A stretch of DNA of 64,000 nt from Deltaproteobacteria bacterium (GTDB lineage Bacteria > Desulfobacterota > Binatia > Binatales > Binataceae), in the NCBI GenBank assembly GCA_021780755.1, contig JAJXYF010000027.1, positions 1-64,000 of the forward strand. Reading direction: 5' to 3'. The notes below the pieces were generated by a model, which was not told the DNA's origin, did not search any database, and was given only the letters and a program-made list of their open reading frames with translations. This document shows, one piece after another, positions 53,019-56,576 of the stretch; positions within the stretch are counted from its first letter, which is position 1; each line of letters starts with the position of its first letter. A program made the translations under genes and the position numbers.

Positions 53019-54692
<1,674 letters not shown>

Positions 54693-54830: not shown

Positions 54831-55397
54831 ATGGGGCCGTTGCCGAAGGGCGTGTTTCTGACCAAGGGCGTGGGCAAGCACCGCGAGAAGCTCAATGCCT
54901 TCGAGCTTTCGCTGCGTTCAGCACAGATTGCGGAGTACAACCTGGTTCGCGTGAAATCGATTTTCCCGCCGCTGTGCAAGTTGATCTCGCCACAGGAAGG
55001 GCAGCGCTATCTGCGTCCCGGACAAATCGTGTTTGCGGTGATGAGCGACAACGCGACCGACGAACCGCATCGGCTGTGCGCGGCCTCGGTGGGCGTCGCG
55101 ATCCCGGCCGACTCGCGCCAGTACGGTTATCTTTCGGAGCATCACAGCTTCGGCGAGACCGAGCAGAAGGCGGGCGACTACGCGGAAGACCTCGCGGCGA
55201 TGATGCTGGCGACGATTCTCGGGGTGGATTTCGATCCGAACGTCAGCTACGACGAGCGCAAGGACATCTGGCGGGTGTCGGACAAGATCGTATCGACGCG
55301 CAACGTGACGCAATCGGCGATGGGCGATCGCGACGGACTGTGGACGTCGGTGGTCGCGGCGGCGGTATTCGTCGATCTGCCCGAAAGCGGCAAGTAG
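54831..55397 (+). CDS. Pyruvoyl-dependent arginine decarboxylase-like protein
   Basis: 188 residues. GVFLTKGVGKHREKLNAFEL, YGYLSEHHSFGETEQKAG and STRNVTQSAMGDRDGLWTS match the pyruvoyl arginine decarboxylase family, which makes agmatine. The self-cleavage site of most members is Ser-Ser (SSIxPP). Here it reads VKSIFPP: the Ser that becomes pyruvoyl is kept, but the preceding Ser is Lys. Other pyruvoyl enzymes tolerate different residues before the Ser, so processing may still occur. The upstream GGAG is about 16 bases away, so the start is somewhat uncertain. Confidence 0.8.
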   Translation: MGPLPKGVFLTKGVGKHREKLNAFELSLRSAQIAEYNLVRVKSIFPPLCKLISPQEGQRYLRPGQIVFAVMSDNATDEPHRLCAASVGVAIPADSRQYGYLSEHHSFGETEQKAGDYAEDLAAMMLATILGVDFDPNVSYDERKDIWRVSDKIVSTRNVTQSAMGDRDGLWTSVVAAAVFVDLPESGK

Positions 55398-55460: not shown

Positions 55461-55691
55461 ATGGCAACGGAAATTTTCTACTGCTCCCCTTGAGGCTACC
55501 GGCCACGCGCGGCCAGTCTGGCCGCGATACTCAAGTCCCGCTTCGACGAAGATGCGCGATTAACGACCGGCAAGAGCGGTCAATTCGATGTGATCGCGGA
55601 CGGTACGCTGATCTTCTCGAAAGCCGCCGTCGGCCGCTTTCCGCTGGAAGGCGAAGTCGAAGAGGCCTTCGCTAAACTCCGGCAGGGCTAG
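55461..55691 (+). CDS. SelW-like selenoprotein (Rdx family) read through TGA
   Basis: ATG 55461 to TAG 55689-55691 encodes 76 residues only if the in-frame TGA at 55491-55493 is read as selenocysteine. The N-terminus then is MATEIFYCSPUGYRPRA, with the CxxU redox motif of the SelW/SelT/Rdx thioredoxin-like family, and the rest agrees with it: GKSGQFDVIADGTLIFSKAA, GRFPLEGEVEEAF. A perfect hairpin lies 14 bases after TGA (55508-55526), where a bacterial SECIS should be. No selA, selB, selC or selD is in the window. The family suggests a thiol-redox role. If selenocysteine is not made by the host, it would be a pseudogene. Confidence 0.8.
55508..55526 (+). promoter_or_regulatory. Putative bacterial SECIS hairpin
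   Basis: CGCGGCCA (55508-55515) and TGGCCGCG (55519-55526) form an 8-bp perfect stem around the loop GTC. The distance from TGA and the loop that begins with G followed by T are as in bacterial SECIS elements recognised by SelB. Confidence 0.6.
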
Positions 55692-55718: not shown

Positions 55719-56576
55719 TCAGGCGGGGGTGGCGAGAATGCGGGCGAGGTCGGCGGCGGGGAGTCGAATTCCGATGTAGAACGGGCCGAACTCGGCGTAA
55801 CGCGCGCTCGATTCGTCGAAGCGCATTTCGTAAACCAGCTTCTTGAAGACCAGCGGGTCGTCGGCGAACAGATCCACGCCCCATTCCCAGTCGTCGAAGC
55901 CGATCGATCCCGAAATCACCTGCGTCACCTGCCCCGCATAGCGCCGTCCGATCATGCCGTGGTCGCGCATCAGCAACTGGCGCTCCTCGATCGGCAGCGA
56001 ATACCAGTTGTCGCTGCCCGCGCGGCGCTTGTTCATCGGATAGAAGCAGACGTATCGGCGATCGGGAATTTGCGGCCACAGGCGCGCGCCAAGCTTGTGC
56101 CGCTGATCTTCGAGATCGTCCTTCACCGCTTTGATCCATTCGGGCGAATGCGGTTTCACGCCCTGGGCGGCGAGCTCCGCATGAAGTTTCACGGTCGCTT
56201 CGTAGAGCCCGATTTCAACCACCGACACGTACGACGTGGTGGGCTCGAGGAACTCGCTCAGCGCGAGCCGGCCGGCCTCAAGTTGCGCGGCGTTGAGTTC
56301 GTCGAAGCCGCGGCGGAAATGGATCGCGATGAGGTCGCCCTTGTGTCCGAGTTGCGAGAAAAGCGCGCTCTGGCCGTCCTCGCGCCGCTCCATCGCGGCA
56401 AACGTTCGCGCCGCCTTTTCGATAATTTCACCACGGGCGGGGCCTGTCAGCGCGTTCCATTGCGAGCGCCGGATGCGGAAAAACTGATGCAGCACGCAGA
56501 AGCCTTCGAGCGTGTTGGGTGCGGCCGCGACATCACGCGCGGTGGTGGACGATTCGTCCGGATGTGGATGCTTCAT
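55719..56576 (-). CDS. hemQ: HemQ-like coproheme decarboxylase (chlorite dismutase family)
   Basis: 285 residues. The ferredoxin-like domain has CFYPMNKRRAGSDNWYSLP (Tyr and Lys of the coproheme site) and LLMRDHGMIGRRYAGQVTQV (haem-ligand His), then SIGFDDWEWGVDLFADDP. HemQ oxidatively decarboxylates coproheme to haem b, the last step of coproporphyrin-dependent haem synthesis. A chlorite dismutase proper is less likely, since its distal Arg is not obvious. P450s in this window need haem. Reads on the minus strand toward the selenoprotein gene. Confidence 0.88.
   Translation of the reverse strand: MKHPHPDESSTTARDVAAAPNTLEGFCVLHQFFRIRRSQWNALTGPARGEIIEKAARTFAAMERREDGQSALFSQLGHKGDLIAIHFRRGFDELNAAQLEAGRLALSEFLEPTTSYVSVVEIGLYEATVKLHAELAAQGVKPHSPEWIKAVKDDLEDQRHKLGARLWPQIPDRRYVCFYPMNKRRAGSDNWYSLPIEERQLLMRDHGMIGRRYAGQVTQVISGSIGFDDWEWGVDLFADDPLVFKKLVYEMRFDESSARYAEFGPFYIGIRLPAADLARILATPA

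Follow-up and report, generated by a model that had tools for sequence, protein, structure and literature searches.

The window, by which the whole 64,000-nucleotide stretch analysed here is meant, carries on its forward strand a short putative gene with an in-frame TGA, followed closely by a hairpin and situated between genes for a pyruvoyl-dependent arginine decarboxylase and a convergent protein of the chlorite dismutase/HemQ family (Table 1). The assembly to which it belongs is a Binataceae MAG (Binatota) of 3.9 Mb in 42 contigs, 95% complete, and is referred to below as the own genome.

Table 1. Features around the SelW-like gene, and candidate selenoprotein genes on other contigs of the own genome (G000)
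Feature	Position	Strand	Basis or remark
Methylmalonyl-CoA mutase catalytic domain	53019..54692	+	PF01642, 755 bits; synteny, further upstream
Pyruvoyl-dependent arginine decarboxylase	54831..55397	+	PF01862, 190 bits; upstream neighbour of SelW
Putative selenoprotein gene of the Rdx family, selW-like, with a product of 76 residues	55461..55691	+	Read-through translation, profile matches, fold
TGA, predicted to be decoded as selenocysteine	55491..55493	+	Site conserved in relatives; Cys codon in some homologues
Core of the predicted bacterial SECIS hairpin (stem of 8 bp, GUC loop with an A-U closing pair)	55508..55526	+	Complementarity, covariation, invariant bases
Chlorite dismutase/HemQ family gene	55719..56576	-	PF06778, 196 bits; convergent, downstream
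PrxQ/BCP-type peroxiredoxin candidate, TPGU	L118:679 (C33)		One TGA at active site
Thioredoxin-like candidate, UPYC	L119:735 (C31)		One TGA at active site
ResA-like candidate, WASWUGC	L120:743 (C40)		One TGA at active site

The order methylmalonyl-CoA mutase, arginine decarboxylase, SelW is kept in most Binataceae loci, and a HemQ-like gene lies convergently downstream in many, though not all, members of the family. At two loci (L033 and L092) no arginine decarboxylase was detected, and selW directly follows the mutase. In the window, 63 nt separate the decarboxylase stop from the SelW start, so that co-transcription of the two genes is possible.

Reading frame and protein identity

The ATG, the TGA and the TAG stop (55689-55691) all lie in one frame. 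With the TGA read as selenocysteine (Sec, U), the predicted peptide is MATEIFYCSPUGYRPRAASLAAILKSRFDEDARLTTGKSGQFDVIADGTLIFSKAAVGRFPLEGEVEEAFAKLRQG, in which GQFDVIADGTLIFSK lies between GYRPRA and GRFPLEGE, with the CxxU motif as CSPU and Sec at residue 11. Under the standard code no ORF of at least 60 amino acids is listed in this frame, and the read-through product matches Pfam Rdx (PF10262) with 58.2 bits (cut-off 22.6; E = 9e-16) on both sides of the TGA; the uncalled SelW-like gene proposed by the first-pass annotation was thus recovered as described. With 46.4 bits the NCBIfam model TIGR02174 (CXXU_selWTH) also matched beyond its threshold of 34.2, and the equivalog model NF041051 (SelTWH_Campy) gave 77.1 bits against a cut-off of 88, missing it by 11 bits; the protein is therefore placed in the broader subfamily TIGR02174 and not in the Campylobacter equivalog. 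A six-frame search found this gene to be the sole Rdx gene of the own assembly. Its closest named relatives, at no more than 78% identity, come from MAGs labelled Candidatus Binataceae of the phylum Binatota.

Codon bias gives the gene only a weak coding signal (0.06 and 0.07 per codon), which is plausibly what is to be expected of a very short gene with constrained codons. The dN/dS ratio past the TGA is about 0.1-0.5 against 24 family members, dS being saturated in some pairs, and on this sequence measure the protein downstream of the TGA is under purifying selection.

The AlphaFold model (pLDDT 95.1, built from 33 sequences) has the predicted family fold, thioredoxin-like with the CxxC/U motif after beta-strand 1. 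The nearest PDB entries are crystal structures of SelW-related proteins, 2p0g, 2fa8, 2ojl and 2obk (TM 0.88-0.89, rmsd 1.1-1.6), with human MIEN1 and mouse SelW ranking next. Together with 3dex, these four share the same fold (TM about 0.82-0.89) at 26-32% identity and are presumably all CxxC proteins; CTQC is visible in the aligned sequence of 2oka. In the Binataceae protein, U replaces the second Cys of the motif of these Cys-type structures.

The predicted SECIS hairpin

The hairpin consists of CGCGGCCA (55508-55515), the loop GTC (55516-55518) and TGGCCGCG (55519-55526). Its perfect 8-bp stem begins 14 nt past the TGA, exactly as first described, and the distance from TGA to loop is 22 nt. 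The published bSECIS model describes an apical loop of 3-9 nt, a stem of 4-16 bp, a distance of 16-37 nt from the UGA and a G within the first two loop positions (PMC13188914); the 3-nt loop GUC, the stem and the spacing observed here all fall within it. Among the 1677 TGAs of the window, only seven (0.4%) are followed by a comparable hairpin, defined as a perfect 8-bp stem with a loop of 3-8 nt, G in its first two bases and a distance of 16-37 nt. Folding energy is only mildly better than that of shuffled sequences (z = -1.65 for 55485-55545 and -2.3 for 55491-55535), and the case for a SECIS element therefore stands on conservation and covariation.

Covariation was assessed in 62 distinct sequences reaching from the TGA to +42. 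Standard pairs make up 91.9% of the stem positions, compared with 80.3% in shuffled and 27-44% in slid alignments; cells with double changes number 54 as against 20 in shuffles (0/500), and the covariation score is 0.325 as against 0.126 in shuffles (0/500) and at most 0.071 on sliding. G26, T27 and T29 are invariant in the alignment of the SECIS region (A1), and in several of the homologous hairpins one pair does not match, in most cases at the foot of the stem.

That the hairpin is a by-product of the peptide AASLAA written in GC-rich codons, with the TGA either read through or ending a short peptide without Sec, would fit the position of the stem inside the most conserved peptide stretch and a fold energy that is by itself weakly exceptional. 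Against it, compensatory synonymous changes (GCC-AGT-CTG, GCG-AGT-CTC, GCT-AGT-CTA) keep both the peptide and the pairing, and the Ser codon of the loop is AGT in 59 of the 59 sequences tallied, although a count over 74 ORFs of the own genome puts AGT at 8% of all Ser codons, a pattern that would need selection on the RNA. Five sequences have Gly at this position, encoded by GGT or, in one, within a GGG-T context that leaves the GT loop the same, and in one homologue (L102) AGT is followed by ATG (Met) with the GT loop start unchanged. The target of selection is thus the RNA loop (A/G)GU(C/U/A)U. The hairpin and the AGT codon were also looked for in two Cys homologues of the same class and were not seen; one of these folds otherwise and the other folds no better than shuffled sequence. 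Given also the complete Sec machinery described below, the by-product reading is highly improbable, and the hairpin is best taken as a SECIS element.

A search of the window at Rfam gathering thresholds gave no match. A covariance model of the SelW SECIS found a convincing match in the genome at its own locus only; a second match (C34:6763, E 0.006) was rejected as its TGA is not in place, and a third was weak (E 0.5). The SECIS of E. coli formate dehydrogenase carries a bulged U. The SelW hairpin differs from it in its perfect 8-bp stem, the lack of a bulged U and the 3-nt loop. The two elements are alike in lying just 3' of the UGA and in having a G/U-type apical loop (hairpin model as in PMC13188914).

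Conservation of the TGA

An Rdx gene is present in 37 of the 41 genomes of the family, the own genome included, and in all 37 it contains exactly one in-frame TGA. The TGA recurs at this position in further relatives, whose records carry the labels Myxococcales, Desulfuromonadales, Gemmatimonadota, Thermoanaerobaculia, Planctomycetota and others. Cys takes its place in two genomes that belong to the class but not to the family, with the motifs CGPCGY (TGT, G046) and CQPCGY (TGC, G059). The comparison of homologues suggested at first pass accordingly returned TGA only among close relatives and Cys in more distant members of the class. A distant Rdx homologue in a record labelled Acidobacteria (L079:3001-3156) has CPAG, its codon GGA giving Gly where the related L080 and L081 have Sec; an error in sequencing, decay of the gene or a paralogue without redox function may lie behind this.

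A lone TGA in a short MAG gene could, taken in isolation, conceivably be a misread TGC or TGT, or a nonsense mutation newly arisen in a SelW gene of the Cys type. Recurrence of the same TGA in every Rdx gene of the family, across assemblies made independently, and in a number of other phyla, together with the purifying selection past the TGA and the covariation of the hairpin, makes such an error or pseudogene exceedingly improbable, and the conservation across independent genomes already refutes it.

Probable selenocysteine decoding in the own genome

The search for selA, selB, selD and tRNA-Sec that had been recommended found all four. The tRNA-Sec has the anticodon TCA (73.9 bits; ARAGORN concurs with tRNA-Sec(tca)), and selB was recovered in two pieces, which belong to one frame and total 367 bits, with selD (380 bits) adjoining it just downstream. 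The selA gene (570 bits, C38:77247) shares its contig with the window and lies within a long open frame, which continues upstream and gives no support to a selA fusion. Two kinds of contrary evidence, the lack of selB or tRNA-Sec and a different sense codon at the site in close relatives, were looked for and not found. Decoding of the TGA as another amino acid such as Cys or Trp by a suppressor tRNA, known as UGA is to be read in these ways in some other lineages, has next to no likelihood here: the genome has tRNA-Sec, SelA, SelB and SelD, it uses TGA as the stop of other genes, and the hairpin conforms to the SECIS model.

Among 96 genomes, Sec-type SelW (SelW-U) and selA occur together in 47, SelW-U alone in one, selA alone in 31 and neither in 17 (Fisher p = 3e-5, to be read with caution because the genomes are related and hence phylogenetically non-independent). 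The only genome with SelW-U and no selA is a fragmented MAG of 430 contigs (G015). Two genomes of genus g15 (G031 and G036) have neither selA nor SelW, and their congeners keep both. In two further genomes of the same family (G008 and G016) selA is present and the SelW gene was not found; either the Sec trait is kept for more than SelW or the MAGs are incomplete, and other selenoproteins probably maintain the trait there.

Further selenoproteins were predicted by the first-pass annotation, and SelD and three thioredoxin-fold candidates came to light. The selD gene (C17:91848-92774, minus strand; L085:7747-8820) has an in-frame TGA in the motif KAAGUAGKLGP, and SelD is, as read from its sequence, itself a selenoprotein in this genome. 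A search for the AhpC-TSA family identified three further genes with a TGA in the active site (Table 1), and in each the TGA is followed by a short hairpin, its small loop containing G. The ResA-like candidate resembles an NCBI WAxxUGC family, and its hairpin repeats the SelW core GCCAGTCTGGC. The own genome is thus predicted to encode at least five selenoproteins, SelD and SelW included, the three thioredoxin-fold ones being candidates. A codon-bias scan for TGA-interrupted genes, covering 121 kb, flagged three places: SelD, which is a true case; L085:13780, rejected as the antisense of another ORF; and 55721 on the minus strand of the window, rejected as the end of the HemQ ORF followed by the antisense of SelW. 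No in-frame TGA was present in the formate dehydrogenase alpha gene of the own genome, and a DsrE gene was not found in it.

Interpretation and relation to known systems

Taken together, these sequence data indicate that the locus almost certainly encodes a SelW-like selenoprotein in which the TGA specifies Sec, and insertion of Sec in vivo at this UGA is very likely. SelA would convert seryl-tRNA(Sec) to Sec-tRNA(Sec) using selenophosphate from SelD, and SelB would bring the latter to the ribosome and bind the stem-loop just 3' of the UGA, which would then be read as Sec, so that a thioredoxin-like CxxU active site would follow beta-strand 1. The product is most likely a small thiol/selenol oxidoreductase of the cytosol, which would cycle by forming a selenenylsulfide bond between Cys8 and Sec11.

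That bacteria decode UGA with SelB and Sec-tRNA at a hairpin within the coding sequence is established (PMC1088965, PMC13188914). Bacterial SelW has been known at least since the Sargasso Sea survey, with 48 SelW-like sequences (PMC1088965), SelW-like selenoproteins are known from Deltaproteobacteria (PMC1794560), and the epsilonproteobacterial SelW is a known case of a gene that annotation often misses (PMC4607533). Known bacterial SelW proteins (CXXU SelT/SelW/SelH) are likewise small Rdx proteins with CxxU, a SECIS directly 3' of the UGA and exchange of Sec and Cys among homologues; the present one differs in its Binataceae MAG host and in its score 11 bits short of NF041051. No paper describing selenoproteins of Binatota was found in a literature search that omitted most subscription journals. 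The report of a SelW selenoprotein in this phylum thus seems new, and the protein is an ordinary though well-supported addition to a bacterial family that is itself well known.

Binatota, a little-studied soil phylum, would thereby join the bacteria that make the known SelW selenoprotein, and the Binataceae very likely decode Sec, with several thioredoxin-fold selenoproteins; standard annotation of the phylum would consequently truncate or lose such genes. The fixed AGT of the loop and the compensatory third-position changes offer clean natural data on what SelB needs of a SECIS. A link of SelW to heme or polyamine metabolism through its neighbours is only a guess, and it is improbable that the Binataceae SelW-U is functionally tied to the arginine decarboxylase and the HemQ-like enzyme, for example by reducing or protecting one of them; if such a tie were true, it would be the first time that a partner is defined for a bacterial SelW. 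The conserved neighbourhood is in this respect a modest new lead to the role of bacterial SelW.
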